Assembly (NCBI RefSeq): GCF_014652655.1
Contig: NZ_BMZF01000001.1
Coordinates: 558,001 to 622,000 of the forward strand
Source of the DNA: Paramylibacter ulvae
GTDB lineage: Bacteria > Pseudomonadota > Alphaproteobacteria > Rhodobacterales > Rhodobacteraceae
Direction: 5' to 3'
DNA length: 64,000 bases
A model generated the notes under the pieces. It saw only the letters and a list, made by a program, of their open reading frames with translations, was not told where the DNA came from and did not search any database. The position numbers and the translations under genes are program-made. Below are positions 18,592 to 37,023 of this stretch, one piece after another (positions within the stretch are counted from its first letter, which is position 1; each line of letters begins with the position of its first letter).

Positions 18592-18600
18592 CGTTATTCC

Positions 18601-19365: not shown

Positions 19366-19393
19366 AACCATCCTCCTCCATATAGTGTTCGTA

Positions 19394-20460: not shown

Positions 20461-20554
20461 ATACGGTTGTTAGCCTTTGGCAAACACAGTGTCAAAAAGG
20501 TTTGTCTTATCATGTGAAATAAAAACGCGCATATACCAAACAAGGAGACAGAAC

Positions 20555-21196
20555 ATGACACAAACCATCACACTACGTTACTTATTCGATCCGCTGTGCG
20601 GCTGGTGTTACGGCGCCTCGCGCTCGGTAACTCAACTTGCAAAACACCCTGCCATTGACCTGCGACCGATGCCAACGGGGCTGTTTGCTGGCTCTGAGGC
20701 ACGCCCGATGGCAGGCTTTGCCGCCCAAGCTTGGGCCAACGATCAGCGTATCGCCAAGTTAAGCGGTCGGGTATTTAGCGAAGAGTATCACCGCAATGTG
20801 CTTGGCGACACGGATGCATCCTTGGATTCAACTGTTGCAACCCGCGCCGTCATTTCCACCGCAGAGATCGCGCCATCGCGTGTGATCGAAGTGCTCGCCA
20901 CCATTCAATCCGCTCGCTACGTAGACGGCAAGGATGTGACCTCGGCCGCTGTGGTTTCCGATCTTCTGACAAAAATGGATTTGGAAGATGCAGGTGCGCG
21001 GGTCATTGCCGCAGATGATGACCTTTTGCACGCAGTTGATGTCAGAACTGACGCCGCACGCCAACTTATGTCTCGCTTCGGACAGCAAGGCGTCCCCGCC
21101 TTAATCGCAACAATTAACGGCACACAAAGCGTTTTGGACTCAGGTGTCCTCTACGCAGGAATTGACAGGGTTTTGACTACTCTGAACTTAACATAA
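20555..21196 (+). CDS. DsbA-family (FrnE-like) thiol oxidoreductase
   Basis: 213 residues from ATG 20555, preceded by AAGGAGACAGAAC; the longer frame has no support. Active-site CGWC (Cys15, Cys18) right at the N-terminus (YLFDPLCGWCYG) and the cis-Pro region GQQGVPALI match the cytoplasmic DsbA-like/FrnE group. There is no signal peptide. Followed 25 bp later by an MBL-fold gene, probably one operon controlled by the divergent LysR. A redox-stress role is a family-based guess. Confidence 0.82.
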   Translation: MTQTITLRYLFDPLCGWCYGASRSVTQLAKHPAIDLRPMPTGLFAGSEARPMAGFAAQAWANDQRIAKLSGRVFSEEYHRNVLGDTDASLDSTVATRAVISTAEIAPSRVIEVLATIQSARYVDGKDVTSAAVVSDLLTKMDLEDAGARVIAADDDLLHAVDVRTDAARQLMSRFGQQGVPALIATINGTQSVLDSGVLYAGIDRVLTTLNLT

Positions 21197-21221
21197 CCAA
21201 CTGAACAAAAGGATTAAAAAC

Positions 21222-22115
21222 ATGAACCGCAGAACTGCACTAAAAGTAACCGCCGCTGGCGCGTTGACCTCTGCTCTACCTCTTCGCATGGCATTCGCAG
21301 ACGATCAGGGCTTGAACTGGGCCCACTTCCCCGCTGGCGAAAACGGTTTTTACCGCGCGCCGACTCTGATCTCTGGCCCAACAGAAGCTGTGCTAATTGA
21401 TGGAGGCTTTACTCTTGCCGATGGTCAGGCGTTGTCCAACACTATCAAAGCCACTGGTAAAAAATTGACCACGATCTACATCAGTCAGAGCGATCCTGAT
21501 TTCTATTTCAGCTTGCGCCCCATTGTTGATGCCTTTCCACAGGTGCGGATCATTGCAGCCAGCGAAACCGTTGCTGCGATTCAAGCGAATGTTGCCAAAA
21601 AGGTCGAAACATGGAGCCCGCAGCTTGGCGAAAATGGCCCACAAACAGTTGACGATGTTGTTTTTGCACAGGCAGACGATAGCAACAGCTTGAACGTCGA
21701 TGGGTATGCAATCGACATCGTGCCAGCCGATGGTTTGGCCAACCGGCGCTATCTATGGAGCGACGACCTGCAAGCCGTTTTTGGTGGCGTCATGGTCTTT
21801 TCAAACACACATGTCTGGGTCGCGGACACCCAAACCAAAGAAGAACGCGCCGCGTGGATCGCCAATCTGGACGCCATCATTGCGCGAAAACCTAAGGTTG
21901 TTGTCCCTGGCCATATGACAACGGATGCGCCCATGGGGTTGGAAGCAGTCACCTTTACCAAAGCTTATCTTCTCGCGATTGAGGAAGAACTGGAAAAGGC
22001 CAATACGTCTGAAGAGCTGATCGCAGCGATGCAAGCACGCTATCCCGATCTGGGCATGGACATTGCGATTTCTATCGGCGCCAAGGTTCTGACAGGCGAG
22101 ATGAAATGGGGCTAA
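21222..22115 (+). CDS. MBL-fold protein lacking the metal motif, Tat-type leader
   Basis: 297 residues. Leader NRRTALKVTAAGALTSALPLRMAFA resembles a Tat or Sec signal (cleavage about 26). The fold is metallo-beta-lactamase-like (GPTEAVLIDGGFTLADGQAL, then IYISQSDPDFYF), but the canonical HxHxDH reads Q89-S-D91-P-D93-F94: three of four ligands are gone and only Asp93 stays. A later VVPGHM remains. It may be a non-catalytic binding protein or use altered chemistry. Operon with the DsbA-like gene (25-bp gap). Confidence 0.75.
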   Translation: MNRRTALKVTAAGALTSALPLRMAFADDQGLNWAHFPAGENGFYRAPTLISGPTEAVLIDGGFTLADGQALSNTIKATGKKLTTIYISQSDPDFYFSLRPIVDAFPQVRIIAASETVAAIQANVAKKVETWSPQLGENGPQTVDDVVFAQADDSNSLNVDGYAIDIVPADGLANRRYLWSDDLQAVFGGVMVFSNTHVWVADTQTKEERAAWIANLDAIIARKPKVVVPGHMTTDAPMGLEAVTFTKAYLLAIEEELEKANTSEELIAAMQARYPDLGMDIAISIGAKVLTGEMKWG

Positions 22116-22584: not shown

Positions 22585-22633
22585 GTTGGAATTGGCGATA
22601 AACCAACTCATTCGCGCCGCAAGGAGACACTAT

Positions 22634-23311
22634 ATGCAACCAATTGAACAGCCAAAGTCGTTGATGGAAGTGACGACGGGTAAAATCCGCGATGCAATTG
22701 TTTCTGGTGAATTGTCGTTGGGATCCAAATTATCCGAGCAACGCCTTGCAGATATGCTCGGCATCAGTCGCTCACCGGTAAGAGACGCGCTCGCTGCATT
22801 GCAAATCGAGGGGCTTGTAAATGTTTCACCCAAACGCGGATCGTTTGTGTTTACACCCGACATGCGTGATGTTGATGAGCTGTGCGAACATCGCACAATC
22901 CTCGAAATTGCCGCAATTCGCATGGGGATGGATCGCAATTATGATAAACTTATCAAAAGTTTAGAAGAGTCTTGTGATGCGATGCAACGCGCGTTGGATA
23001 AACCAAACCCAAAGAATTATTCGATTGCGGATGACCAATTCCACAAGTTCATCCTTGATGCGTCGGGCAACCGTTCGATCATAAAATCTTACAACCATAC
23101 AATCAGTCGCGCCAAAGCATTACGCACGCATCTGTTCACGATATTTGATGAAAATACTGACCGCTCGATGGGTGAACATATTCAAATTCTCGAGGCATGT
23201 CGCAACAAGGATTCCGATCTGGCGACAACGCTTATTGCAAAACATATCGAACATCTCGCAACAGCATTCCGTATCGGTCACTCCAATCAACCAACGGATA
23301 CATCGACGTAA
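22634..23311 (+). CDS. GntR-family (FCD domain) regulator
   Basis: 225 residues from ATG 22634, preceded by AAGGAGACACTAT. N-terminal winged HTH (GKIRDAIVSGELSLGSKLSEQRLADMLGISRSPVRDALAALQIEGLVNVSPKRGSFVF) and an FCD-type all-helical effector domain with candidate metal ligands (DDQFHKFILDASGN; later GEHIQILEACRNKD and IAKHIEHL). Members usually repress catabolic operons and are released by a carboxylate ligand. Lies 78 bp upstream of the ThDP enzyme gene in the same direction. Confidence 0.86.
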   Translation: MQPIEQPKSLMEVTTGKIRDAIVSGELSLGSKLSEQRLADMLGISRSPVRDALAALQIEGLVNVSPKRGSFVFTPDMRDVDELCEHRTILEIAAIRMGMDRNYDKLIKSLEESCDAMQRALDKPNPKNYSIADDQFHKFILDASGNRSIIKSYNHTISRAKALRTHLFTIFDENTDRSMGEHIQILEACRNKDSDLATTLIAKHIEHLATAFRIGHSNQPTDTST

Positions 23312-23389: not shown

Positions 23390-25018
23390 ATGTCAGATAA
23401 GAAAGAATATATGCACCAATCAATCGCACAGGCGGTGCGCGATCATGGTGTTGATATCATGTTTGGGTTGGTGGGTGATGCAAATCTTTTCATGGCAAAC
23501 CACTTTGTGAACGGATGCGGGGGAAAACTTGTTCCAGCAGCCCACGAAGGCGGGTCAGTTTTGATGGCGCTCGCCTACACGCAGAGCGCTGGTAAAATCG
23601 GCGTTGCAACAGTGACACAAGGCCCTGGCCTGACCAATTGTTTTACAGCACTTCGCGAAGGTGTGGTTGCACGTCGTCCCATGATCCTCTTGTGTGGTGA
23701 TACCCCTGTCACGGCTGCGTTTCACCCACAAAACATTGATCAGCGCGAAGTTGTCAAAGCTACGGGTGCTGGTTTCGAACAGGTGCAATCACCCCAAACA
23801 GCCGCGCGCGATGTCGCGAATGCGTTTTTTCGGGCACATAAAGAACGCCGCCCAATTGTTGTGAACATCCCGTCAGATTTCATGTGGGCCGAAGTTGAAC
23901 ATCAATCGGTCGTATTCCCCCGACCAAGTGTTGCTGGTGTGATTACCGAGGGCACGGTTCACGAAGAGGCAATTGGCATGATTGCCTCTGCTAAACGTCC
24001 CCTAATTCTTGCGGGGTCAGGCGCTGTTGCAGCCAAGGAAAATTTGATCGCTCTGTCTGAACGGATGGAGGCACCACTCGCCACCACATTGAAAGGCACC
24101 GGATTATTCGCGGGCCACCCCAATAACATTGGGTATTTTGGCACGCTGAGTACAGCAGAGGCATATGATGTCATTGGTGCCGCCGATTGCGTTATCGTAT
24201 TTGGCGCATGGATGCATTTTTTGACGACAGATCGTGGCGAATTGCTGAAAGGCAAGCGCGTCATTCAAGTGAACAACAATCCATCAGACATCGGAACATT
24301 CTATCAACCCGATGCTGTCCTGATTGCTGACGCGGCAAAAACAGCAGACAATATAATTTATTGGCTGGACGAAGCCGAAATTCAACCAACAGGATTTTCC
24401 ACCGAGCTCCCCGCGCATAATATCGCCACACACCCCAAAGGCGACCCAAACAAGGCCAAACCTGGGTTCATTAATTTTGAATATGCGCTGGATCGTTTGA
24501 ATGAAACATTGCCAAAAGATCGCATTATGTTGACCGATGGCGGACGTTTTATTACCGAAGTCTGGTGTCGCGTGGATGTGCCAGACCCCAAAAGTTTTCA
24601 CATGAGCGATAATTTCGCGGCCATTGGGCAAGGCATGCAACAAGCGATTGGCGCAGCCCACGGCGCCCCTACCCGTCCTGTTGTTCTGTTTACAGGTGAC
24701 GGCGGTTTCATGATGGGTGGTATGAACGAATTTAACACGGCGGTGCGAACCAACTGCGATTTGATTGTGATTGTCTGCAACGATTCCGCGTATGGTGCGG
24801 AGCACATTCAAATGATTGATCGACAAATGGACCCTGCATTGACAGAATTCCAATGGCCCTCTTTTGCCAAAGTCGCCCAATCTCTTGGCGGGCAAGCTGT
24901 CGAAGTGACATCGCCTTATGAACTGGAGACAGCGATCGAAGCCATCAAAAACCGCAAAGGCCCAATTATGGTCGAACTGAAACTGGATGCAAACAACGTT
25001 CCACGCATGCGGATGTAA
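23390..25018 (+). CDS. ThDP-dependent enzyme of the acetolactate synthase-like family
   Basis: 542 residues in the three-domain ThDP layout: N-terminal Pyr domain with cofactor-activating Glu53 (PAAHEGGSVLMALAY), a central domain, and the PP domain with GDGGF at 436-440 followed by NEFNTAVRTNCDLIVIVCND. Such enzymes decarboxylate or carboligate 2-oxo acids. It is not a recognised Ilv, Gcl or Xsc protein to my eye. In context, a 2-oxo acid made by the FAD-linked dehydrogenase at 31540-32997 is the natural candidate substrate. Ribosome site AAGGAAACGACA. Confidence 0.8.
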   Translation: MSDKKEYMHQSIAQAVRDHGVDIMFGLVGDANLFMANHFVNGCGGKLVPAAHEGGSVLMALAYTQSAGKIGVATVTQGPGLTNCFTALREGVVARRPMILLCGDTPVTAAFHPQNIDQREVVKATGAGFEQVQSPQTAARDVANAFFRAHKERRPIVVNIPSDFMWAEVEHQSVVFPRPSVAGVITEGTVHEEAIGMIASAKRPLILAGSGAVAAKENLIALSERMEAPLATTLKGTGLFAGHPNNIGYFGTLSTAEAYDVIGAADCVIVFGAWMHFLTTDRGELLKGKRVIQVNNNPSDIGTFYQPDAVLIADAAKTADNIIYWLDEAEIQPTGFSTELPAHNIATHPKGDPNKAKPGFINFEYALDRLNETLPKDRIMLTDGGRFITEVWCRVDVPDPKSFHMSDNFAAIGQGMQQAIGAAHGAPTRPVVLFTGDGGFMMGGMNEFNTAVRTNCDLIVIVCNDSAYGAEHIQMIDRQMDPALTEFQWPSFAKVAQSLGGQAVEVTSPYELETAIEAIKNRKGPIMVELKLDANNVPRMRM

Positions 25019-25024
25019 TGGTCT

Positions 25025-25054
25025 CAGCAAGTCGTGCATAACCGCGACTTGCTG
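25025..25054. terminator. terminator between convergent ThDP and sulfatase genes
   Basis: CAGCAAGTCG (25025-25034) pairs perfectly with CGACTTGCTG (25045-25054), 10-nt loop, followed on the plus strand by TTTAAAATG. It sits 7 bp after the ThDP stop and 25 bp beyond the sulfatase stop, so it probably serves both strands. Confidence 0.7.
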
Positions 25055-25079
25055 TTTAAAATGTTACCGTGCTCGCCGT

Positions 25080-26642
25080 TTACGCAAGTCGTTCTGCGAG
25101 TGGGCTTTCATCCATATGCGCTGTTAATTGTGCGATCAAACGCAATGAAAGAATGGATTTTTGTTCGGCGTAGCGGGGATCATCCCACAGGTTGCAGGTT
25201 TCGTTTGGATCGTTTTTCAAATCATACAACTCACCCCAGTCTTCAACACCATAGGTCGTGAAGCGCCAGTCGTGATTGCACAGCGAACGCACGCGCGCAG
25301 GCGGATTAAAGCCAAGTCGTGAACCGCTGTCATTATATTCAATGTAGATATCATCACGGTGTTCAGCATCAGAAGATAAGCATTGTCGAAAGCTACGCCC
25401 TTGCATACCGTTAAACGCAAGCAGGCCTGCCCGATCAAGGATTGTGGCGGGAATGTCGATGGTCGATGCCAAAGCCGAGGAACGATGCCCGCCCTGCGCA
25501 TTTGGTTCTGACCAGATCATCGGAACACGGGTTACAGAACGCATTGGCAATGCCCCCTTTAGCAGCATACCAAAATCGCCAAGGTAATCACCATGATCAG
25601 AGGTGAATACAATCACCGTGTTATCTGCCTGTCCAGTTTCATCCAGCGCCGCAACAATACGGCCAACCTGATCGTCAATCATGGTAATCATACCAGCGCT
25701 AAGCGCCATTGCCTCGCGAATGTGTTGCGGTTCGGTGCGAAACGCGACCTGTTTGTTGGGGGCTTGTTGCCCCTTTTCCCAAAGATCATTTAAATATTTC
25801 ATCGGCGGCGATGGGTTTTGATGCGCCTCATAGGGCAGATCAACTTGGAACTGTTCAGGCGCGTACATATCCCAATATTTTCCAGGTGGATTAAATGGGT
25901 GATGCGGATCGGGAAACGATACAAAGGCAAAGAACGGGTCGGCCTTTTTTGCTGTATTCCCCAAATATTCAATCGCCTTATCCGCGATCCATGTCGTCGG
26001 GTAAAATTCTTCTGGAATGGGCGTGCGATATGCCTGCGGGCAGGTATAATCATGTGCGATCTCATTTACCGGATCACAAAGTTCCTGCCAATTCGGGCAA
26101 TGTTCACGAAACCATTGCTGATAATGTCCGCCACAACGATCACCATGCCCCGTCACCATATCGACCTGTTGAAAACCGTAATATGGCAATTTCAATTCAT
26201 AAGAATTGGCCGCACTATAATTGACTGGCTGTTCTTCGATGTAAGCAGAATGGTCGGGCTTCCATGCCTCTGGTATCGGGCGGCCATCCGTTTCCCCTGC
26301 TCGATCTGATGGCATATCAAGAAACGGTTGAAGATGACTCTTGCCGATCGAGGCCGTTTGATATCCTGCCGTCGCCAGCACATCCACAAAGGTATTCGCC
26401 CGTTCGCTCAGCGCCAGACCATTATGGCGTAATCCGTGTACGCTTGGCATACGCCCCGTCATCAATGACGCCCTGTTTGGCATACAAATTGGCGCTGCGA
26501 CGTGAAAATTTTCAAACACAGCACCCTTGGCCGCGATCGCATCGATATTCGGTGTTTTTACAACCGGATGCCCCATACAACCGAGCCAATCGGCGCGATG
26601 CTGATCGGTGATAACGAACAAAAAATTGGGACGTTTCGTCAT
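25080..26642 (-). CDS. type I sulfatase (formylglycine-dependent), cytoplasmic
   Basis: 520 residues. Opens with PNFLFVITDQHRADWLGCMGHP (metal-binding Asp region); the formylglycine signature is C53-M-P-N-R in PICMPNRASLMTGR. SDHGDYLGDFGML later supplies further metal ligands. There is no signal peptide, so it should act in the cytosol after uptake of a sulfate ester (or phosphonate/phosphate ester, as the superfamily also holds those). Last gene of the operon led by the FAD-linked dehydrogenase and containing tctCBA, which suggests that the TTT system imports the ester. Substrate not identifiable by eye. Confidence 0.82.
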   Translation of the reverse strand: MTKRPNFLFVITDQHRADWLGCMGHPVVKTPNIDAIAAKGAVFENFHVAAPICMPNRASLMTGRMPSVHGLRHNGLALSERANTFVDVLATAGYQTASIGKSHLQPFLDMPSDRAGETDGRPIPEAWKPDHSAYIEEQPVNYSAANSYELKLPYYGFQQVDMVTGHGDRCGGHYQQWFREHCPNWQELCDPVNEIAHDYTCPQAYRTPIPEEFYPTTWIADKAIEYLGNTAKKADPFFAFVSFPDPHHPFNPPGKYWDMYAPEQFQVDLPYEAHQNPSPPMKYLNDLWEKGQQAPNKQVAFRTEPQHIREAMALSAGMITMIDDQVGRIVAALDETGQADNTVIVFTSDHGDYLGDFGMLLKGALPMRSVTRVPMIWSEPNAQGGHRSSALASTIDIPATILDRAGLLAFNGMQGRSFRQCLSSDAEHRDDIYIEYNDSGSRLGFNPPARVRSLCNHDWRFTTYGVEDWGELYDLKNDPNETCNLWDDPRYAEQKSILSLRLIAQLTAHMDESPLAERLA

Positions 26643-26672
26643 TGAGAATTTCCCTTACCGTTTAGTGCTGTT

Positions 26673-27491
26673 TCAATGGGAAAGCAAAACGGGGACATCC
26701 GTTTTGTTGATCACATCCGTGGTAACGCCGCCAAACACATCTTGGCTAAACTTGCTATGCTCGAACGCGCCCATCACCACAAGTTTCGCACAAATTTCCT
26801 CGGCGACGGACAATATTGTTTTGGCAATTGTGCCCCCCTTCGACATGAGGATAAAATTAGCCTCAATTCCATGGCGTTCCAAATTTCGAAGAAGAGCATC
26901 CGTACCGGCAATCCGCTTTGTTCCAACGGTCAGAACCGTTACTTTCGCCTTTTCCTCTAATGTTGACATGGCATCACCAATCGCACGCGCAGACGAGCGT
27001 TTACCGTCCCAAGCGACAAGCGCATGTTCCGCCAAACGATCCGCGTGATATCCATCGGGTACGACCAAAACTGGACGACCACTTTGCAGCGCGATCAAAT
27101 CTGGGTTCGCAGACATGTGTTCTTCGTCAACGGTATAGGAATGCGTGCCAGTCACAATCAGATCGAAAGAGCGTGCAAATTCCGATAACGATATGCCGTT
27201 CTCTTCGCTGAGGTCGACGAATTCAGATCGCTGTTCCAGACCTGCCTCTTTGGTAATTTCATGAAATCTTTGAGAGACATCCTGAATTTTACCTTTCTCC
27301 GCCTCAAAAAAAGTTTCCAAATACCGTTTGGGAACACGTCCTCTTAATGTGCGTTCAAGATCACTCTGGCTATGCGCAAGAACACCCGTAATCCAAGCAT
27401 TTCGTTGTTGGGCTAAATGGAGCGCATAGCGCAAACCACTGCCCCGTGAAGCATCGCCACTATAGGCGCTTAATATGCATTTTACCGACAT
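26673..27491 (-). CDS. universal stress protein, tandem UspA domains
   Basis: 272 residues with two Usp domains (about 1-145 and 155-272). The second has the ATP-binding-type pattern near its end (KLVVMGAFEHSKFSQDVFGGVTTDVINKTDVPVLLSH). Usp genes often accompany TTT or TRAP importers. It is placed between tctA and the sulfatase with 30- and 40-bp gaps, consistent with one operon. Function in the pathway is unknown. Confidence 0.83.
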   Translation of the reverse strand: MSVKCILSAYSGDASRGSGLRYALHLAQQRNAWITGVLAHSQSDLERTLRGRVPKRYLETFFEAEKGKIQDVSQRFHEITKEAGLEQRSEFVDLSEENGISLSEFARSFDLIVTGTHSYTVDEEHMSANPDLIALQSGRPVLVVPDGYHADRLAEHALVAWDGKRSSARAIGDAMSTLEEKAKVTVLTVGTKRIAGTDALLRNLERHGIEANFILMSKGGTIAKTILSVAEEICAKLVVMGAFEHSKFSQDVFGGVTTDVINKTDVPVLLSH

Positions 27492-27531
27492 TGGACGATC
27501 CTTTGAAATGTGTTTCCCGTTTATGATGACC

Positions 27532-29034
27532 CTAATCAGAGGCTTCTTGCGCGCCTTTGCGCAAAAACCAGACCACCGAAATCACCGAAAGAACCAAAAG
27601 CAGGACAGCAACAGGGCTTCTAAGAATTTGAGTAAGATCGCCATTGGTTAGCGCCAAGGACTGAGCGATGGATTTTTCAAACCGTGGGCCGAGGAAAAAT
27701 GCAATGATGAAAATCACCAGTGAATATCCAAAGCTGGCCATCAAGTAACCGATCACCGCAAAAATCAGCATGATTGAAACACCGAACAGGCCGCTGGTCG
27801 CCATAGCAACCCCCACGAAACAGAGCAAAAGTGCCGACGAAAATATGATCGATTCAGGTGCAGAAACGACCTTGACCCACAGACGCAAGCCAAGTTGCCC
27901 AACCCAAAGGTTTACGAAATTTGCCATGATCATTGCACCAAACAAACCATAGACCAACCGCCCCTGATTTTCGAACAAAAGTGGGCCCGGCTGCATTCCG
28001 TGGATCATAAAGGCACTGATAATCAATGCCGCACCAACACTGCCGGGAATGCCCAATGTCAGTAGCGGAATAAGATTGGACCCAACAACAGCAGAGTTGG
28101 CAGATTCCGATGCGGCGATCCCATGAATATTTCCTTTGCCAAAACTGCTTGGATCTTTGGAGGATGCTTTCGTCATCGCATAAGACATAAAGGCAGCGGC
28201 GGTTGAACCGATACCAGGAAGCGCGCCCAAAATAGTGCCGATTATCGCACCGCGCAGCATCGTATAACGGCACGACCAATATTCAGCCCATGTGACTCGC
28301 TGATCATCAGGGTTTCCTGTTTCTTTGGCGATGATGGCCGGCCGCATGTTGCCGTGCGCCTCGGACATGCGATGTAGAATTTCAGAAATGGCCAACATGC
28401 CAATCGCAACGGAAGGTAAAGCGAGCCCATTAAACAGATCCCAATAACCAAAGATTAAGCGCGGCGTGAAATTCTCGGGATCTTGTCCGATTGATGCAGC
28501 CAGCAAACCCAGCATCGCCGCAATGATCCCCTTGGTCAAAGAGTTGCCAATCAAACCTGCAAGAACAGAAAAGGCAAAGATCATTAGAGCAACGATTTCG
28601 ATGGGCCCCATTTTTAAGGCTAGTACCGCCAATGGCGCAGAGACAGTGATCAAAACAATGTCGCTGAACGTGTCACCAGTCACCGACGAAAACAGCGCCA
28701 TTTTGGTGGCTTTCAATGGTTTACCCTGCTTTGCCAACGGATAACCATCCATCGCGGTGGCCGCTGCATCAGGTGTGCCTGGGGTGTTCATCAAAACTGC
28801 GGGGACCGCCCCCCCGACCAGTCCGCCTTTGTTCACGCCAACAAGAAAGGCAATCGCAGGCAACGGATCAAGACCAAAGGTAAATGGTATCGCAATTGCC
28901 ATTGCCATGATCGGGCCAATGCCCGGAACGGCACCAACAAATTGTCCCAAAACCACACCAAATAAGACGAAAGCCAAGTTATACAGCGAAAAAGCGTCTC
29001 CGAAACCTGCGAGAATTGTTTGAAAATCTACCAT
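27532..29034 (-). CDS. tctA: TctA, tripartite tricarboxylate transporter large subunit
   Basis: 500 residues, about 11-12 membrane segments. Conserved N-terminal GQFVGAVPGIGPIMAMAIAIPFTF and the repeat-related ALPGIGSTAAAFMSYAM and IPLLTLGIPGSVGAA mark TctA. With TctB and TctC it forms a secondary importer of a carboxylate. Ribosome site AAAGGACC; tctB ends 12 bp upstream. Confidence 0.92.
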   Translation of the reverse strand: MVDFQTILAGFGDAFSLYNLAFVLFGVVLGQFVGAVPGIGPIMAMAIAIPFTFGLDPLPAIAFLVGVNKGGLVGGAVPAVLMNTPGTPDAAATAMDGYPLAKQGKPLKATKMALFSSVTGDTFSDIVLITVSAPLAVLALKMGPIEIVALMIFAFSVLAGLIGNSLTKGIIAAMLGLLAASIGQDPENFTPRLIFGYWDLFNGLALPSVAIGMLAISEILHRMSEAHGNMRPAIIAKETGNPDDQRVTWAEYWSCRYTMLRGAIIGTILGALPGIGSTAAAFMSYAMTKASSKDPSSFGKGNIHGIAASESANSAVVGSNLIPLLTLGIPGSVGAALIISAFMIHGMQPGPLLFENQGRLVYGLFGAMIMANFVNLWVGQLGLRLWVKVVSAPESIIFSSALLLCFVGVAMATSGLFGVSIMLIFAVIGYLMASFGYSLVIFIIAFFLGPRFEKSIAQSLALTNGDLTQILRSPVAVLLLVLSVISVVWFLRKGAQEASD

Positions 29035-29046
29035 GATCTTGGTCCT

Positions 29047-29472
29047 TTATGGTAATGCGCGGCCGAGCACATGGGTGACAAGAAACCAAATGATCAACGG
29101 CATTCCGACAACACCTAAAACCAACCAATGGGGACGACGTTCGCCAATCAACCACATAATGGCAAAGGCCAGAACGGGCGCGACATATTCAAACCCAAAC
29201 AGCGACATCGCATATATGCCAGCAGCCAACAAAGCAACGTAGAGGAATGTTTTTGCAATAAGACTTGGATTTCGCACTTCAAAATCCGTGGGCTTTAACA
29301 TCAATATTGCACCACAAAGCGCGAGGACCATTGAAATGAGATTAGGCATTGTCGCTGGCGCAATATTACCCTCGTCAACAGATTCAACAAAGTTGGGAAT
29401 AACAAAAAAATACATCGTTAGCCCGAAAAACAGGAAAAACGCGCCCGAAACGCGATCAGCACTTAAATCCAT
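29047..29472 (-). CDS. tctB: TctB, tripartite tricarboxylate transporter small subunit
   Basis: 141 residues with four hydrophobic segments, the size of TctB. Start placed at ATG 29472 (MDLSADRVSG), 5 bp after TTGGAGG; a TTG four codons upstream falls within the ribosome site and is unlikely. Forms the membrane part with TctA. Confidence 0.86.
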   Translation of the reverse strand: MDLSADRVSGAFFLFFGLTMYFFVIPNFVESVDEGNIAPATMPNLISMVLALCGAILMLKPTDFEVRNPSLIAKTFLYVALLAAGIYAMSLFGFEYVAPVLAFAIMWLIGERRPHWLVLGVVGMPLIIWFLVTHVLGRALP

Positions 29473-29495
29473 ATCGTCCTCCAACCATTTGCGAA

Positions 29496-29527
29496 AACTG
29501 CCCCGTCAACACGCTTGCGGGGCAGTT
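29496..29527 (-). terminator. tctC-tctB intercistronic hairpin
   Basis: Perfect 10-bp stem AACTGCCCCG (29496-29505) with CGGGGCAGTT (29518-29527), 12-nt loop, directly after the tctC stop. Third example of the binding-protein/permease hairpin in the window. Confidence 0.65.
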
Positions 29528-29532
29528 GTTAT

Positions 29533-30480
29533 TTATTCCGCGAACAGGATCTGTGCCGCCGCCAGACCATCCGTCATCATTTTATGTGCGCCCTCAGGGC
29601 CCATATTGATCGGAGCACCTTTTACCGCATTTTGAACGATTTCGGCAATTTCGTCGGATTTGACGGCTTCATCAATTGCAGCAGCGATTGCGGCAACTGC
29701 GGCGGGGTCCGTGCCTTTGGTCATCGCAAGGAAAAACACTGGATCAACAAATACGCCAAGACCGTTATCCACAAATGTTTTCACATCAGGTGCATAAGTC
29801 AAGCGTTCCTGATTAGCACCAGCAATAACCTTCATATCGCCTGACTCAAGATAGGGGAAATGCTCACCAGATCCAAAACCGGCAAGAACCTGTCCGCCGA
29901 GGATCAGCTTCATCACCTCTGCGCCGCCATCTGCTGTCACCAAATTAAAATCAGCACCTGTCTGTTTGGAAGTTGATTTCATCATCAAAACCTGTGGCGG
30001 TGCCATTGTCGCAACTGGCAATTGCCCTTGTTCCTTGGCATAGGCGATCATCCCCTCCAAATCGTCAAACGGGGCATCTTTGCCAGCGACCAACGCTAGC
30101 TCTGCCTTTGCGATTGTGCCAAGATAATCAAAACTATCTTGGTCAAACGGCAATTGATCACCACGCTGCACAAGCTGAACCAGCACAGGAATACTTACTC
30201 CCATACCAACAGTTGTTCCATTCGCAGGCATTTGCGACAGCGACGTGAACATCGCAACGCCACCCCCACCCGGCTTGTTTTCAACAACAACATTCCAACC
30301 CGTGTTATCCTTAATCACTTTACCAAGAACGCGGCCCATCGTATCTGTAGAGCCACCAGCACCAAAGCCGATTTGGATCTTCAGCGGCCCATCAGGTGCC
30401 CAGTCTTGGGCAAATGCCGGCGCTGTAATTGCCATTGCAGCGGTGGCCGCGAGCGCAAGTAGTTTAGATTTAAGTTTCAT
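29533..30480 (-). CDS. tctC: TctC, TTT-family substrate-binding protein (Bug type)
   Basis: 315 residues; signal peptide to about residue 24 (ITAPAFA/QD). Bug-family hallmarks IQIGFGAGGSTDTMGRVLGKVIKDNTGWNVVVENKPGGGGVAMFTSL and the central substrate loop (VTADGGAEVMKLILGGQ). Binds an organic acid for the TctAB channel. Strong ribosome site GGGAGGAAACC. Confidence 0.9.
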   Translation of the reverse strand: MKLKSKLLALAATAAMAITAPAFAQDWAPDGPLKIQIGFGAGGSTDTMGRVLGKVIKDNTGWNVVVENKPGGGGVAMFTSLSQMPANGTTVGMGVSIPVLVQLVQRGDQLPFDQDSFDYLGTIAKAELALVAGKDAPFDDLEGMIAYAKEQGQLPVATMAPPQVLMMKSTSKQTGADFNLVTADGGAEVMKLILGGQVLAGFGSGEHFPYLESGDMKVIAGANQERLTYAPDVKTFVDNGLGVFVDPVFFLAMTKGTDPAAVAAIAAAIDEAVKSDEIAEIVQNAVKGAPINMGPEGAHKMMTDGLAAAQILFAE

Positions 30481-30513
30481 TTTGGTTTCCTCCCTATGAA
30501 ATTTTGCTTTCGT

Positions 30514-31485
30514 TTACTTTAATTTTTCAAGTGCCAGACGCTTAACCGCCCCATCGCGAAGCCCAGCGACTTGGTTAAGAATTGCGGTTGAATCGACAAA
30601 AATATTCGGCTCGCCATCTTGGCGCGCGGCGAGTTTTAAGCGGTTTTCGTCCAAACCCGCTGAAAATCCATGCGTGGTTAAGTGTACCTCTACAGGATTA
30701 TCGTGCGCTTCGATCATCTGACGCACACGATCGACGCTTTCTATATATGCCTCAACCTGACTGGCGCCTTCGATTGCATTGAGACCAAGACCGCCAATGG
30801 TAATGGCACGATAAGTTTGATCATTATCATGAACATCGTAAGTATAAGAGGCTGTTCCCCATGTATGACCCGGGGTCTCGATCACAGAAAATGTGTTATT
30901 ACCAACTGTAATCTCGTCGCCATCGGATACAATCATTTCAGGTGCAATCATATCCCAAGCGCGCGGACTGCCTTGCGATTTGGCCGAAGAAGCCGCTGCT
31001 TCATCCCAGCCTTTTTGTGTCATCACAAATGTCGCGTTGGGCAACAACGGTTTCAATGAAATCGCGCCGCCAACATGATCAAAATGCCCGTGGGTCATCA
31101 AAACATATTTTATATCGGCCAGATCAGTGCCTGTTTGCTTGATCTTTTCAACGATCATTTTTCGAAACGGCCCATAAAGCGTATCAATTAACACCACACC
31201 ATCATCGGTATGCACCAACCACGCCGAAACCCAACAAGCGCCAACATAGTCAACATTGTCGAACGGTTTCCACGGTTCAACATTTTGATCAGCAGGTGTG
31301 TTGAGCCATTTCCCCAAATCTGCGGGCATTTTACCAGTTTTACCAAATTCAGCAAAGCGCTGCAGGATCGGACCCGAAGGACAACCGTCAAATAACGATT
31401 TGGCAGACGCAGTTCCTGTCATGCTCATGGCGATCAACGCGGATGCATGGGCGACATTCCTTATCACCTTCAAAGTAATTTCCAT
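30514..31485 (-). CDS. secreted MBL-fold metallohydrolase
   Basis: 323 residues from ATG 31485, preceded by GAGAGGAGAGGAT. Signal peptide to about residue 28 (TGTASA/KS), so periplasmic. Intact metal motif H132-G-H134-F-D136-H137 (MTHGHFDHVGG), then TPGHTWGT and TTHGFSAG: subclass B3-like MBL organisation. Operon position between the FAD-linked dehydrogenase and tctC suggests that it cleaves an ester, lactone or sulfate ester in the periplasm before uptake. A beta-lactamase role is not indicated. Confidence 0.82.
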   Translation of the reverse strand: MEITLKVIRNVAHASALIAMSMTGTASAKSLFDGCPSGPILQRFAEFGKTGKMPADLGKWLNTPADQNVEPWKPFDNVDYVGACWVSAWLVHTDDGVVLIDTLYGPFRKMIVEKIKQTGTDLADIKYVLMTHGHFDHVGGAISLKPLLPNATFVMTQKGWDEAAASSAKSQGSPRAWDMIAPEMIVSDGDEITVGNNTFSVIETPGHTWGTASYTYDVHDNDQTYRAITIGGLGLNAIEGASQVEAYIESVDRVRQMIEAHDNPVEVHLTTHGFSAGLDENRLKLAARQDGEPNIFVDSTAILNQVAGLRDGAVKRLALEKLK

Positions 31486-31539
31486 ATCCTCTCCTCTCAA
31501 AATACCCTCGTATCGCGTCCTCAATCGGTATGTTTTCTG

Positions 31540-32997
31540 TCACTCCGTGGGTATTAACTTACCTGGGTTCATAATGTTTTTTGGATCCAACACTGTTTTA
31601 ATTTGCCGCATCACGGCGATCTGAGTCGCCTCTTTTAACTTGCGCATCACATCTAACTTGCTCTGACCAATTCCGTGTTCAGCACTGAACGATCCGTTGA
31701 GTTCCGTCAAAAGTGTGAAAACCATTTCTTTGGCGGTATCTAGCGGCAACTCTTCCCAATCGCGGCCTTCAGCAGCGGATAGCGCATAGTGTAAATTACC
31801 ATCCCCAAGATGCCCGACAGTCAAAGGTTGAAAACCGAGTTTTGCCATCTTCGCATCCATTTCGCCGACAAAGCAAGCAATCTGGGAAAGCGGGAGAGAA
31901 ATATCCAAATGATATGCAGGGCCTGCCTCTGTGATGGCCTCAAGAATTGACTCGCGCATTTTCCAAAGATCCGCGCGCTGTTGCTCTGATTGCGCAAGCA
32001 TGGCATCCAGCACAACCCCCTCTTCCATCAATACACTCAATAACTCCATAACCTCCAGCTCCAGACAGATGCTGCCATCTTCCATCACTTTGGCATCATG
32101 GGGCCGTGAAGAAGCGACTTCGACAAGAATTCCGTTCTCTGCTGGCGTATCTAAAGGGGTGCGAATATCAGGGAAAACTTTGCAAATAACGTCCACGGCT
32201 GGTTTTGGCATGAATTCGAATGCTTCAACACAACCACCCGTGTGGTCTTGCAGACGATTCAACACCGTGATTGCGTCATCCAATTCACCAACGGACAAAA
32301 ATGCAGTCGATCGCGCGGTCGGCATAGGGAAAAGTTTGAACACCGCCGCAGTGATAATCCCCAATGTTCCTTCGGCCCCGATCAAAAGATCTTTTAAATC
32401 GTAACCCGTGTTGTCTTTGCGAAGTCCCGTCATGGTATTTATCACGGTTCCATCTGGCATAACCGCCTCAACCCCAAGGCATAATTCGCGCGCATTGCCG
32501 TACCGCAAAACATTTGATCCACCTGCATTTGTCGCTAGGTTCCCGCCAATGGTACAGCTTCCTTTTGCACCAAACACCAAGGGAAAGATAAGATCGTTAT
32601 TTTCTGCTTCGGCATGTAATGCTTCGAGCACGGTACCTGCTTCGGCAACCACCGTTCGGCCTGCGACGTCAAAGGAACGAACCGCATTCATTCGCGTCAA
32701 CGAAACAACAACAGAGGGTTGCCCATTTATGGGAACACCGCCGCCACACAAACCCGTCCGCCCCCCTTGGGGAACAATTGCGATATTTTCGGCACTGCAC
32801 AGTCCAACAATCTTTGAAACTTCGCTTGTCGTTTTGGGACGTACAACAGCAAGAGCAGATGAATGATAGGCTGATGTCCAATCTTGGACATACGCAGCAA
32901 CATCATCAAGTTGAGTCAAAACATTTGCTTCGCCAACGACCGCCGCAAGCGCATCGACGAACGGTGAAACGTCAACGTTCAGAATGACTTCGTTCAA
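31540..32997 (-). CDS. FAD-linked D-2-hydroxyacid dehydrogenase (GlcD/DLD family)
   Basis: 485 residues starting at TTG 32997; GGTGGAGGG lies 6 bp upstream and the only nearby ATG is out of frame and hits a stop at once. FAD PCMH-type domain: PQGGRTGLCGGGVPIN, GSCTIGGNLATNAGGSNVLRYGN, GAEGTLGIITAAVFKLFP. The C-terminal FAD-oxidase half has GHLGDGNLHY, FSAEHGIGQSKL and ends DPKNIMNPGKLIP. Oxidises a D-2-hydroxy acid (lactate, hydroxyglutarate or similar) to the 2-oxo acid. First gene of the operon running to the sulfatase. Confidence 0.86.
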   Translation of the reverse strand: MNEVILNVDVSPFVDALAAVVGEANVLTQLDDVAAYVQDWTSAYHSSALAVVRPKTTSEVSKIVGLCSAENIAIVPQGGRTGLCGGGVPINGQPSVVVSLTRMNAVRSFDVAGRTVVAEAGTVLEALHAEAENNDLIFPLVFGAKGSCTIGGNLATNAGGSNVLRYGNARELCLGVEAVMPDGTVINTMTGLRKDNTGYDLKDLLIGAEGTLGIITAAVFKLFPMPTARSTAFLSVGELDDAITVLNRLQDHTGGCVEAFEFMPKPAVDVICKVFPDIRTPLDTPAENGILVEVASSRPHDAKVMEDGSICLELEVMELLSVLMEEGVVLDAMLAQSEQQRADLWKMRESILEAITEAGPAYHLDISLPLSQIACFVGEMDAKMAKLGFQPLTVGHLGDGNLHYALSAAEGRDWEELPLDTAKEMVFTLLTELNGSFSAEHGIGQSKLDVMRKLKEATQIAVMRQIKTVLDPKNIMNPGKLIPTE

Positions 32998-33383: not shown

Positions 33384-34040
33384 CTATCGTGACACAAAAA
33401 TACTGTCACCGTCTGGCTGAATTGTCAGGTCGGATTTGTTCGACATTTCCAAAATTTGTCTGGCGTTTATTAGATCGTTAGCTTCCGCGCGAACTTTAGC
33501 TTCGCTTAATGTGTAGCCGTGGGCAATCCACCGCTCGATCAATCGCTGATTTAGAATATCAGTTGGTATTTCGACGAAAATGCTAAAATCCAAAAAATCC
33601 ATCAGCTCGCGCCAAACTGGCGCATCAAGTAGAAGATAATTACCCTCCAACACAGCAATATCGCAATGTGGTTCTATCGTCCCACCTTGCACGATAGTTT
33701 TGTCTTGGCCGCGATCAAAAATTGGATAAGTAACCCGTTTTTCAATTGAGAGTTCCTTGACCAGGTTGAGAAACCGCGTCGCATCGAAGGTCTCGGGCGC
33801 GCCCTTACGATCGAGTAAATTTAGCTGTTTCAATGCGGTGTTATCAAGGTGAAAACCATCCATCGGGACAACCTGAGCCTTGTGCCCGCCATCATTCAAT
33901 GATCGGGAAAGAGCGGCTGCAATTGTCGATTTGCCAGATGCTGGTGGTCCGGCTATCGCAATCAGTTTTCTTAATGATTTACGGGGCGCAGCAAGAATAG
34001 GATCCAGCAACGCCTCTGCAATTTTATCGGGTGAGATCAA
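33384..34040 (-). CDS. frcK: FrcK-like kinase of the uridine kinase/P-loop family
   Basis: 218 residues; Walker A GPPASGKST, then DGFHLDN and EGNYLLLD as in the uridine kinase-like P-loop kinases. It starts at TTG 34040, whose last two bases belong to the frcA stop (TTGA), so it is translationally coupled. In Sinorhizobium meliloti the fourth gene of frcBCAK encodes such a kinase. Likely phosphorylates the imported sugar; the actual substrate is not known from sequence. Confidence 0.82.
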   Translation of the reverse strand: MISPDKIAEALLDPILAAPRKSLRKLIAIAGPPASGKSTIAAALSRSLNDGGHKAQVVPMDGFHLDNTALKQLNLLDRKGAPETFDATRFLNLVKELSIEKRVTYPIFDRGQDKTIVQGGTIEPHCDIAVLEGNYLLLDAPVWRELMDFLDFSIFVEIPTDILNQRLIERWIAHGYTLSEAKVRAEANDLINARQILEMSNKSDLTIQPDGDSIFVSR

Positions 34041-34813
34041 GCGGTAATCTCTGCGGGCGGCTCTTTCGCGCCAGTCATGAATGCGACGGCATCCGACATC
34101 GTATAATCCTTTGGATCAATCGTACATAAACGCTTGCCCAGACGATGAACATGAATGCGATCTGCAACCTCAAACACATGCGGCATGTTATGACTGATCA
34201 GAATGATCGGTATACCCCGAGCCTTCACATCTTTCATCAACTCCAGCACTTTGCGGCTTTCTTTCACCCCAAGGGCGGCTGTTGGCTCGTCCATGATGAT
34301 GAATTTCGTCGCGAATGCGGCGGCACGGGCAACTGCGACACCTTGGCGTTGACCACCAGAAAGTGTTTCAACGGGTTGCTTGATTGACTGAACCGTCATC
34401 AAACCTAGCTCGGTCAATTTTTCACGCGCAAAGGTCTCCATCGCGGGTTTGTCCAACATGCGCAGGAATTTCCCTAAGAAGCCCTCTTTGCGAATTTCGC
34501 GACCAGTAAACATATTGTCGGCAATAGACAACGCTGGCGAAAGCGCAAGGTTCTGATACACGATCTCGATCCCCATATCGCGGGCATCAATCGGAGAGGT
34601 AAAGTTAACCTTTTTTCCCTCGATCAGAATTTCACCCTCATCCGGAATTGTCGCCCCACAGATCGCTTTTACAATCGAGGATTTGCCCGCTCCGTTGTCG
34701 CCGATAACTGCTAAAATCTCGCCGGGATATAGTTCGAAATCGGAATGATCGATTGCGGTGACGTGGCCATAGCGCTTCACGATGCCGCTTGCTTTTACAA
34801 CTGGATTAGTCAT
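34037..34813 (-). CDS. frcA: FrcA, sugar ABC transporter ATPase
   Basis: 258 residues from ATG 34813 (MTNPVVKASGIVKRYG), sharing one base with the frcC stop. Single-domain ATPase: Walker A GDNGAGKSS, signature LSGGQRQGVAVARA, Walker B FIIMDEPTAALG. Being a single rather than tandem domain distinguishes it from RbsA/XylG and fits FrcA of the fructose-type importer. Confidence 0.88.
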   Translation of the reverse strand: MTNPVVKASGIVKRYGHVTAIDHSDFELYPGEILAVIGDNGAGKSSIVKAICGATIPDEGEILIEGKKVNFTSPIDARDMGIEIVYQNLALSPALSIADNMFTGREIRKEGFLGKFLRMLDKPAMETFAREKLTELGLMTVQSIKQPVETLSGGQRQGVAVARAAAFATKFIIMDEPTAALGVKESRKVLELMKDVKARGIPIILISHNMPHVFEVADRIHVHRLGKRLCTIDPKDYTMSDAVAFMTGAKEPPAEITA

Positions 34814-35895
34814 TACGCAGATACCCTTCTGATCCATTGGTCGATAGCGACCGCGATGATAATGAGCCAACCGATAGCAAAGACTTGCCACAATACATCG
34901 ACACCTGACAGGCGAAGACCCGAGCGGAACACACCAACAATCAGAGCGCCAAATAACGCCCCCATGATCGAGCCACGCCCACCAAAGAGCGAGATGCCCC
35001 CGATAACCACGGCAGTAATACTGTCCAAGTTCCCCTCGTAAAATGATTGCGGAGAGATCGAACCAACCCGTCCGATTGACGCCCAGCCCGCAAATGCGCA
35101 AACCAAACCAGCCAAACCATAGACCGACAACAATGTACGATCGGTACGAATGCCAGACATTTCGGCCGCTTCTTTGTCATCGCCAATCGCGTAAACGTGG
35201 CGGCCCCAAGCCGTTTTGTTCAACATGTACCACAGTACAACAAAGACCAGCACCATCAGGATGGCACTGAATGTTATGCGGGCCCCACCGATGTTGAACG
35301 ACTGCCCGAAAAACTTCAAGAAAGACGCATTCGCATCGATGTCCTGACCACGGATAGATTGTGCGCCAGACAACCAAAGCAACAGTGCATAAAAAATCGA
35401 CCACGTGCCCAATGTCGTAATGAACGGTGGCAGCTTGATTTTGGTGATAAACCAACCGTTCATCAGACCTGCACCAACACCACCGGCCATACCCGTTAGG
35501 ATTGCGAGACCAGAAGGTACGCCCATGAACACGGCTAGATTTCCCATGACAACGGACATCAACACCATGATCGCCGCAACCGACAGATCGATACCAGCAG
35601 TGATAATAATCAATGATTGAGCCGCCGCAAGAATGCCGATGATCGACACTTGCTGAAGGATAAGGCTTAGATTAAACGCGGAAAAAAACTTGCTTCCTGC
35701 AATGAAACCGAATGCGATCAAACTGATGACCAGCACGATAACGGGTACCAATGTTGGATTGTTGTGAAGTAGATGCTGAATACGGTTCAGCAAGCTTGTG
35801 TTTTTAACTTTGAACTGCGCCACTTCTTTGGCGCTTTGGTCCAAATTCTGTTCAAAGCTTTGACCTTCACTGGCCTTATCTGTTGCATCTGACAT
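34813..35895 (-). CDS. frcC: FrcC, sugar ABC transporter permease
   Basis: 360 residues from ATG 35895 (MSDATDK), with GAGGAGAG upstream. A long polar cytosolic N-terminus (about 1-60) is followed by around ten membrane segments of the RbsC/FrcC type. SLILQQVSIIGILAAAQSLIIITAGIDLSVAA and the late GGISLFGGRGSIMGALFGALIVG are conserved. Membrane part of the frc importer. Confidence 0.88.
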   Translation of the reverse strand: MSDATDKASEGQSFEQNLDQSAKEVAQFKVKNTSLLNRIQHLLHNNPTLVPVIVLVISLIAFGFIAGSKFFSAFNLSLILQQVSIIGILAAAQSLIIITAGIDLSVAAIMVLMSVVMGNLAVFMGVPSGLAILTGMAGGVGAGLMNGWFITKIKLPPFITTLGTWSIFYALLLWLSGAQSIRGQDIDANASFLKFFGQSFNIGGARITFSAILMVLVFVVLWYMLNKTAWGRHVYAIGDDKEAAEMSGIRTDRTLLSVYGLAGLVCAFAGWASIGRVGSISPQSFYEGNLDSITAVVIGGISLFGGRGSIMGALFGALIVGVFRSGLRLSGVDVLWQVFAIGWLIIIAVAIDQWIRRVSA

Positions 35896-35964
35896 TTTGA
35901 TCTCTCCTCTTAGCAAGGTAATTCGAACTATGCTAAACTGTCAAAGGATTGGCCCAAGATTGTT

Positions 35965-35988
35965 CGGCCGAGCACGCGTGCCCGACCG
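35965..35988 (-). terminator. frcB-frcC intercistronic hairpin
   Basis: On the minus strand CGGTCGGGCACG faces CGTGCTCGGCCG; all twelve positions can pair (two G-U), with the inner GCACGCGTGC closing as a tight loop. It lies between the frcB stop and frcC and is another binding-protein/permease hairpin. Confidence 0.6.
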
Positions 35989-36012
35989 ACGACAACCGTT
36001 AGGAGATGGAGG

Positions 36013-37023
36013 TTACCCCCAACACTTATTCAGACCTTCTTCAGAGGTCAAAGAAGGAACGCCATCGACAGGCGCGTCTGTGATTAATTCAACCCCTGTG
36101 TTGAAGAAATCCAAACCTTCAGAGTTCTGAGGCTTCGTACCATCGGCTGCGAATGCGCTAATCGCCTCGATGCCTTTGGATGCCATCAGCAATGGGAATT
36201 GCATGGAAGTGGCACCGATCACGCCGCCTGCAATGTCTTTCACACCAGGGCAACCACCATCAACAGAAACGATCAAAACGCCGTCCTCTTTGCCCGCTGC
36301 TTTCAATGCTTCGTATGCACCAGCTGCCGCAGGTTCGTTGATCGTGTAAACAAGATTGATTTCAGGATCAATTTGCAACAGGTTTTCCATCGCCTGGCGA
36401 CCACCGTCTGGCGACCCATTCGTTACGTCGTTTCCGACGATGCGTGGATCATCCTCGTCACCGATGTCTGTAGGGTCTTTGATGTCGATACCAAAGCCTT
36501 GCAAGAAACCGTTGTCACGTTGGTAATCAACAGAGATTTCAGATGCGTTCAGGTCCAACAACGCGATTTTTGCGTTTGCAGCATCTGCGCCCATTTTTGC
36601 CTTGGCCCATTGACCAATCAAAACACCCGCTTTGAAGTTATCTGTGGCGAATGTGGCATCTGCTGTATCTGCGGGTTCGAATGCTGTATCCAATGCGATC
36701 ACCAAAAGCCCTGCTTCGCGTGCTTGTGTTACGACAGGCGCCAATGCGCGGCTGTCGGTTGGTGTAATCAAAATACCCTTAGCGCCGGATGCAATGCATG
36801 TTTCCACCGCGGCGACTTGTGTTTCAACATCACCGTCATATTTGCCCGCAAAAGTAGACAAATTAATGCCGTTTGCTGCCGCACCTTCTAATGCGCCCTC
36901 TTTCATTTTAACAAAGAAAGGGTTGGTGTCTGTTTTTGTGATTAGGCACGCACCTGTTTCGGCGAATGCAGTTGTGCCCATTGTGGCCAATGCGATTGCA
37001 GTTGTTGCAAATAGTTTTTTCAT
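36013..37023 (-). CDS. frcB: FrcB, sugar-binding protein of the fructose-type ABC importer
   Basis: 336 residues; signal peptide to about residue 21 (TTAFA/ET). The mature sequence begins [24 protein letters not shown] and includes [49 protein letters not shown] and ends GLNKCWG. This is a very close match in pattern to rhizobial FrcB, which binds fructose (also ribose and mannose). Strong GGGAGGACACC ribosome site. Heads frcB-C-A-K. Confidence 0.88.

Follow-up and report, generated by a model that had tools for sequence, protein, structure and literature searches.

Described routes through the homoprotocatechuate meta-cleavage (hpa) pathway start with hydroxyphenylacetate or tyramine, and we know of none that includes a sulfatase, a 2-hydroxyacid dehydrogenase or an exported metallo-beta-lactamase-fold (MBL) hydrolase. 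The mandelate pathway consists of a dehydrogenase and benzoylformate decarboxylase. Its logic, oxidation of a 2-hydroxy acid followed by thiamine diphosphate (ThDP)-dependent decarboxylation, is shared by the gene set at positions 23390-32997 of a 64,000-nucleotide stretch of Paramylibacter ulvae DNA (the window; positions 558001-622000 of contig C1 in a genome of 3.17 Mb, here G000), although the ThDP enzyme of this set is nearest to PRK08266-, AruI-, ALS- and Xsc-type models, and the ring pathway linked to it is mostly that of homoprotocatechuate or homogentisate. Relatives of its sulfatase, FAD dehydrogenase and MBL-FAD pair lie in or abut hpa catabolons in three other genomes (G139, G187 and G218). 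Our tentative reading is that the cluster is an operon for the breakdown of aromatic 2-hydroxy acids. The likeliest of these are (R)-aryl-lactates such as 4-hydroxy- or 3,4-dihydroxyphenyllactate, O-sulfated forms included. That the substrate is an aromatic 2-hydroxy acid, whether an aryl-lactate or a mandelate-type acid, is rather probable.

All eight genes that a sequence-only reading had named in this region were open and full length, and their coordinates and families held. Seven of them lie on the minus strand: an FAD-linked D-2-hydroxyacid dehydrogenase (31540-32997; FAD_binding_4 and FAD-oxidase_C), a predicted exported MBL hydrolase related to subclass B3/CAR enzymes (30514-31524; Lactamase_B), a tripartite tricarboxylate-type (TTT) importer made up of the periplasmic solute-binding protein TctC (29533-30480; PF03401), the small membrane subunit TctB (29047-29484; PF07331) and the large membrane subunit TctA (27532-29034; PF01970, 431.6 bits), all three over the gathering score, a universal stress protein (USP) family protein (26673-27491; PF00582), and a formylglycine (FGly)-type sulfatase predicted to be cytosolic (25080-26642; PF00884). 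Because the gaps from the FAD dehydrogenase gene to the sulfatase gene are 15, 33, 48, 12, 40 and 30 bp, one transcript is likely, and the seven genes probably form a single operon that ends with the sulfatase. The gene of the ThDP-dependent 2-oxo-acid enzyme (23390-25018, plus strand; three TPP_enzyme domains) is convergent with the operon, 61 bp from the sulfatase gene. A GntR/FCD-family transcriptional regulator (22586-23311, plus strand; Pfam GntR and FCD over the gathering score), which the sequence-only reading had overlooked, is encoded 78 bp upstream of the ThDP gene. Its orthologues accompany the FAD-MBL pair in other loci (66% identity in L064, 65% in L067 and 51% in L066), and it probably regulates the cluster. 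A promoter scan found 10 sites against 14.6 expected. On the far side, 386 bp separate the FAD dehydrogenase gene from the next one, which opens a kinase/ABC-transporter set (named by eye).

Import, cytosolic desulfation, 2-hydroxyacid oxidation and a ThDP-dependent step, as put forward by the sequence-only reading, is a fair functional reading of these families; the ties of the parts to the hpa, homogentisate and protocatechuate pathways were not visible from the sequence alone. In the route that we propose, the exported MBL would hydrolyse an ester or lactone in the periplasm to release the acid, and TctC/TctB/TctA, a carboxylate importer by family, would take it up. The cytosolic sulfatase would then strip an aryl sulfate where one is present, a substrate suggested by gene linkage, and the FAD/Zn dehydrogenase, judged by its aligned active-site residues, would oxidise the 2-hydroxy acid, yielding a 2-oxo acid. 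The ThDP enzyme would decarboxylate an aryl-pyruvate to an aryl-acetaldehyde, and aldehyde oxidation, with ring hydroxylation where needed, would lead to homoprotocatechuate and thus to an hpa pathway encoded elsewhere in the genome. In this scheme, the choice of an aryl-lactate, the function given to the MBL and the order of the steps are our inferences.

The connection with ring cleavage was seen in gene neighbourhoods among 248 genomes of the family (247 genera, G000 included). In G139, hpaR and hpaF-E-D-G-H are followed by genes for a MarR regulator, TAXI and TRAP proteins, the sulfatase (58% identity) and the FAD dehydrogenase (40%); two genes of this row, TRAP and FAD, are each split over two frames. 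The corresponding row of G187 consists of a pyridoxal phosphate (PLP) decarboxylase gene, hpaG, hpaH, hpaI, and MarR, TAXI, TRAP and sulfatase genes. An hpa cluster, the MBL-FAD pair, a GntR gene, a different ThDP enzyme (26%), an aldehyde dehydrogenase and a 3-hydroxybenzoate-hydroxylase-like monooxygenase lie side by side in G218. The hpa cluster of G000 is on contig C12, where HpaE, HpaD and HpaH score above the NCBIfam cut-offs, HpaI just under (353.4 versus 368.8 bits) and an HpaG-type protein under (157.6 versus 276.4 bits). The same contig encodes a 5-carboxymethyl-2-hydroxymuconate isomerase (CHMI) protein (HpaF), a MarR regulator named HpaR for its position and, adjoining the hpa genes, a PRK08294-type monooxygenase whose nearest PDB entry is 3-hydroxybenzoate hydroxylase. 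G000 is also one of the 3 genomes with an HpaB-domain match among 21 searched.

Orthologues of the ThDP enzyme (57-60%) stand beside a TRAP importer in homogentisate clusters carrying hmgA, fahA and maiA, namely on a Loktanella salsilacus plasmid (L161), in the nearly identical L162 (G006) and in L163 (G239), hence in two independent cases. Since homogentisate, like homoprotocatechuate, is a C8 dihydroxyphenylacetate, decarboxylation from C9 to C8 would fit the enzyme. It scored below the cut-off in each of the best 25 of 57 NCBIfam models. Two specific assignments were rejected: Xsc, the sulfoacetaldehyde acetyltransferase of taurine-type sulfonate metabolism (TIGR03457, 189.1 bits versus a cut-off of 676.4, which two genes elsewhere in G000 exceed), and AruI, the 5-guanidino-2-oxopentanoate decarboxylase (PRK07524, 224.3 versus 500 bits). 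An Octadecabacter metagenome-assembled genome (MAG) has a ThDP enzyme gene (25%) between two sulfatase genes (L056, 5564-11545).

Co-occurrence across the family was evaluated with HpaF, which has a background of 62/248 genomes (E <= 1e-20) and was the PF02962 CHMI in all three copies checked. The sulfatase matched in 29 of the 248 genomes (E <= 1e-100), of which 17 have it at ca. 50% identity or more, the other 12 (40-48%) being counted apart; for the ThDP enzyme, 28 of 30 genomes were used, leaving out G142 and G229 (44-46%). The identity cuts (sulfatase ca. 50%, ThDP enzyme 56%) were chosen once the identities had been seen. With them, HpaF accompanied the sulfatase in 14/17 genomes (p 4e-7) and the ThDP enzyme, at 56% identity or more, in 19/28 (p 4e-7); for the MBL the count was 4/5 (p 0.015). 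The more distant sulfatases occurred with HpaF in 2/12 genomes and with HpaF or iron-type HpaD in 5/12. Iron-type HpaD, with a background of 31/248, accompanied the ThDP enzyme in 11/28 (p 1e-4) and the MBL in 3/5 (p 0.015). As a control we used xsc (background 155/248), which gave 15/17 for the sulfatase (p 0.017), 23/28 for the ThDP enzyme (p 0.016) and 4/5 for the MBL (p 0.38). Among the xsc-positive genomes the links with HpaF held, with 14/15 for the sulfatase, 18/23 for the ThDP enzyme and 4/4 for the MBL against a background of 59/155.

A number of observations weigh against an aryl-lactate route into the hpa pathway. Two of the physical links point to C7 benzoates. In a MAG labelled Granulosicoccaceae (L036), the order TctC-TctB-TctA-sulfatase is followed by a 3-hydroxybenzoate hydroxylase homologue (2dkh, E 7.7e-237). 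On a Paracoccus marcusii plasmid, an MBL (64%) and a sulfatase (51.7%) flank genes for a second MBL, TAXI, TRAP and a SulP transporter, and this run lies beside pcaGH with a transposase in between. Both links would suit (hydroxy)mandelate-type acids, from which FAD-dependent oxidation would give an aryl-glyoxylate, the ThDP enzyme a benzaldehyde, and further steps hydroxybenzoate and protocatechuate, while sulfated hydroxybenzoates may be substrates of the sulfatase. In the same direction point G052, where matches to PcaH and PcaG, together with a PobA-like gene (FAD_binding_3 by Pfam, the PobA name by eye), lie near a 68% homologue of the L036 hydroxylase, and G218, where the second ThDP enzyme and aldehyde dehydrogenase stand beside the MBL-FAD pair with the monooxygenase, a 51% homologue of the L036 protein. 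Against mandelate-type acids, a PcaH query (E <= 1e-30; the search did not extend to other protocatechuate or gentisate dioxygenases) matched in 4 of the 7 genomes searched and in none of G000, G044 and G120; orthologues of the ThDP enzyme and the sulfatase track HpaF, and the former occur in homogentisate clusters as well. Mandelate-type substrates are the main aromatic rival, which we consider unlikely.

The remaining points against the aryl-lactate route concern linkage, statistics and the ThDP enzyme. In G000 the hpa genes are on C12 and the cluster is on C1, so that physical linkage is absent from the window's own genome, and G071 has the FAD-MBL pair yet neither HpaF nor an iron-type HpaD match. 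Some hpa clusters, including that of G000, have an HpaD of another type than the iron-type. The p values come from Fisher tests that ignore phylogeny and carry no correction for the number of tests, and lineage plays a part in the co-occurrence, because even xsc was mildly enriched. Iron-type HpaD accompanied the sulfatase in 4/17 genomes (p 0.15) and the 40-48% sulfatases in 4/12 (p 0.048). The sulfatase and the ThDP enzyme co-occurred no better than chance (2/17, p 0.6), and G000 alone of the 248 genomes has both the sulfatase and the MBL, the substrate of which is a guess. No indolepyruvate or phenylpyruvate decarboxylase model was among the best 25 of 57 for the ThDP enzyme. Six of a set of eight ThDP neighbourhoods had no ring-cleavage gene among the queries used, nor did L126. 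Relatives on plasmids of Terrarubrum, Novosphingobium and Rhodococcus (45-48%) and of Roseivivax (61.5%) had no consistent ring-cleavage neighbour.

The FAD-linked dehydrogenase is of the same family as human D-2-hydroxyglutarate dehydrogenase (D-2-HGDH; 6lpn) and 3pm9, with the same Zn ligands and the Arg and His for the 2-hydroxyacid moiety. In the alignment it keeps R386, H434, H441, E475 and H476 of the human enzyme, whereas T390, K401, Y432 and N443, which hold the distal carboxylate, are replaced with Leu, His, Val and Ala (0/4 kept), the D-2-HGDH numbering having been fitted from motif spacing. The same four replacements were found in all three close orthologues aligned (G052, G071 and G218), and a 51% relative from Paracoccus aestuarii, encoded among sugar-acid genes, also differs at these positions. 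The roles of the residues (Zn and lactate moiety versus distal carboxylate) are those given in PMC7801405, which reports that D-lactate dehydrogenase (D-LDH) and GlcD likewise replace the distal-carboxylate residues. The replacements therefore argue against a dicarboxylate substrate, and not by themselves for an aromatic one, since D-LDH and GlcD are alike in this respect. A dicarboxylate-type D-2-HGDH was rejected on this ground, all four residues being replaced, and glycolate oxidase GlcD because of its score (TIGR00387, 276 bits versus a cut-off of 567.9). Given a dehydrogenase without the residues for a second carboxylate, a plain tricarboxylate, which the sequence-only reading had named as a refuting ligand of TctC, would also seem less likely. 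Among the relatives of TctC with solved structures is a terephthalate-binding protein, and those encoded on Phaeobacter plasmids (best 55%) are in an unrelated setting.

It would be quite improbable, in our view, that the cluster serves an aliphatic substrate, either a D-2-hydroxy acid or an ester of one, with no tie to aromatics and of a kind ordinary for TTT importers. Aliphatic acids are common substrates of TTT and GlcD-type proteins, and the replacements seen in D-LDH and GlcD as well as the sugar-acid setting of the P. aestuarii relative would accord with such a substrate; it is opposed by the linkage and co-occurrence with ring-cleavage genes and, as far as dicarboxylates only are concerned, by the loss of the distal-carboxylate residues.

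The order FAD-MBL-TctC-TctB-TctA-USP-ThDP is kept in two other genera, G052 (L064) and G044 (L065), with protein identities of 68-93%, and because it is shared by two other genera the arrangement is more than chance. The USP gene is syntenic in both loci, and the ThDP orthologues there are 82% and 81% identical; the GntR gene of L064 is divergent from the FAD gene, and a contig end cuts the FAD gene of L065. TctA orthologues in L036, L063, L064 and L065 are 87-93% identical. In G071 and G218, the GntR, FAD and MBL genes stand together without the transporter. The MBL matched in 5 of the 248 genomes including G000 (E <= 1e-40), with the FAD gene adjoining in 5/5, and a class-wide search of 289 genomes at E <= 1e-50 matched in G000 alone. 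Conservation as a unit, the lack of which the sequence-only reading had named as a refutation, thus applied to FAD-MBL-TctCBA-USP-ThDP and failed for the sulfatase: the syntenic clusters of G044 and G052 are without it, and elsewhere in both genomes there was no match at E <= 1e-100. The sulfatase is therefore a module gained by or lost from the core, and since it is outside the core, a single sulfated 2-hydroxy acid need not be the substrate of the whole cluster, as had been supposed.

The sulfatase is a separable module travelling with importers. A TTT or TAXI-TRAP importer was encoded within ca. 3 kb in 13 of the 17 genomes with a sulfatase of ca. 50% identity or more: TctCBA in G000 and G073, TAXI and TRAP in ten genomes, and a TAXI-like match of 31% in G233, where the stretch is short. 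Within ca. 3 kb no importer was found in G064, G072 and G014, and G059 has a 30% TctA match 4.7 kb off. In Martelella, a GntR-sulfatase pair (59.5%), a different ThDP enzyme (25% to that of G218) and TctABC are encoded within 8 kb. It is conceivable, if somewhat unlikely, that the cluster combines two modules, one (FAD-MBL-TctCBA-USP-ThDP) for a non-sulfated 2-hydroxyacid and the sulfatase for other phenolic acids taken up by the same transporter. The clusters of G044 and G052, which lack the sulfatase, agree with this, as do the absence of a match at E <= 1e-100 elsewhere in both genomes and the examined stretches of G073 (L063 and L123), which carry TctCBA-sulfatase without the FAD, MBL or ThDP gene. 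Arguing for one function are the place of the window sulfatase at the end of the operon after a gap of 30 bp, the sulfatase adjoining the FAD dehydrogenase in G139, and the P. marcusii run, in which the MBL and the sulfatase are separated by four genes. In L063, an SdsA-type alkylsulfatase gene (14679-16736; Alkyl_sulf_dimr and Alkyl_sulf_C) adjoins the TctCBA-sulfatase set.

The sulfatase matched PF00884 with 155.1 bits (gathering score 25). Residues 53-57 are C-M-P-N-R, which fits CxPxR, the FGly-type cysteine motif of sulfatases. In the predicted structure (mean pLDDT 80.4), residues 6-12 already form the first beta strand, with no leader ahead of it. The nearest solved sequences and folds are the arylsulfatases SpAS1/SpAS2 and EfAS and the phosphonate monoester hydrolases (PMHs), the nearest folds being PMHs, SpAS2 and EfAS; identities in the fold alignments are ca. 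23-25%, and the protein scores under the cut-off in each of four models (PehA, choline-sulfatase, Mn-arylsulfatase and PRK13759). For the relations among the PMH, SpAS2 and EfAS groups we followed PMC5870055. A choline sulfatase (TIGR03417, 198.5 versus 433.45 bits) and a PehA phosphoric/sulfuric ester hydrolase (NF045661, 200.3 versus 900 bits) were rejected, although the fold is still close to PMHs; the sequence-only reading had named a known phosphonate or choline-sulfate enzyme as a way in which it could fail, and this did not occur at the curated cut-offs. A homologue of the formylglycine-generating enzyme (FGE) is encoded 6 kb past the window end (L147, positions 628110-628919 of C1; PF03781, 244.9 bits). 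In a search of 6 genomes, FGE matches were strong in G000, G073 and G139, weaker in G187 and G044, and absent from G052, which is also without an orthologous sulfatase.

The MBL has HxHxDH at residues 145-150, the further Zn ligands H220 and H285, and a Sec-type leader (read by eye). When aligned with BJP-1 chains, all six B3-type Zn ligands were present in the window MBL and in 5/5 aligned orthologues. It thus has these six ligands in common with CAR-type subclass B3 metallo-beta-lactamases, with 419 bits to the CAR_gen_B3 model, but is under the cut-off of that model (500 bits) and under that of NF033105 (139.8 versus 240 bits). Its partners are the 2-hydroxyacid dehydrogenase (5/5 family genomes) or an importer and a sulfatase (P. 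marcusii), and it lies directly beside aromatic-catabolism genes in G218 and P. marcusii; in G000 and G071 the proximity is less direct. The simplest guess is that the MBL is a periplasmic esterase or lactonase acting before import.

In rosmarinic acid, an ester bond joins caffeate to (R)-3,4-dihydroxyphenyllactate. Together with zosteric acid and sulfated flavones, rosmarinic acid is documented from the eelgrass Zostera marina in PMC7916139. A more specific and speculative version of the aryl-lactate reading, to which we give little credence, is a seagrass-polyphenol island: the MBL would split rosmarinate-type esters outside the cytoplasm, TctABC would import (R)-3,4-dihydroxyphenyllactate, the FAD and ThDP enzymes would lead to homoprotocatechuate, the sulfatase would take O-sulfated phenolic acids, and an adjacent CoA-ligase gene set would take the hydroxycinnamate half. 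That set (10072-19419, minus strand) encodes a CoA ligase (PRK12582, 632 bits, under the cut-off of 777), an enoyl-CoA hydratase, a short-chain dehydrogenase/reductase (SDR), an acyl-CoA dehydrogenase, an amidohydrolase, a TRAP importer and a MarR regulator. Eight of its genes recur in G071 (L170) with 62-92% identity, ca. 12 kb from the FAD-MBL pair; two lie by pca genes in G052 and three by a hydroxylase homologue in G213. It is possibly a hydroxycinnamate arm, a label suggested by similar clusters, and its linkage to the cluster is only suggestive.

If true, the seagrass reading would assign a native metabolic role to one branch of the B3 metallo-beta-lactamase relatives, and an MBL that is a phenolic esterase would bear on the roles of such relatives beyond antibiotic resistance. 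The linkage also suggests substrates for three orphan groups, namely the sulfatase clade that accompanies importers (TAXI/TRAP or TTT) and hpa genes, the ALS-like ThDP family, which travels with hpa and in some genomes with homogentisate genes, and the exported B3-type MBL branch. The kinds of enzyme are known. Among the titles and abstract beginnings searched, a literature that omits most subscription journals, we found no description of their combination, which agrees with the sequence-only reading, to which no pathway of exactly this composition was known; no bacterial route for sulfated phenolics or rosmarinic acid, and nothing on point for phenyllactate catabolism, a sulfatase with homoprotocatechuate, or hydroxymandelate and benzoylformate decarboxylase with a sulfatase, appeared there either.

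Several neighbouring genes of the window were also recorded. Just upstream of the cluster (20477-22115, plus strand) are genes for a DsbA-like protein and an MBL-fold protein, both with Pfam matches under the gathering score; the latter has a leader (by eye) and no HxHxDH, and the pair is divergent from a LysR-type gene. On the other side, ABC transporter genes and one for a small P-loop kinase (by eye) form a set at 33384-37023 on the minus strand, and ABC and solute-binding genes with 55-66% identity to this set lie ca. 7 kb from the sulfatase gene of G059 (L071). Two UxaC-family (PF02614) uronate isomerase genes (51844-53244, minus strand, and 56295-57695, plus strand) lie ca. 3 kb apart in opposite orientation, with GntR-like regulators in between.

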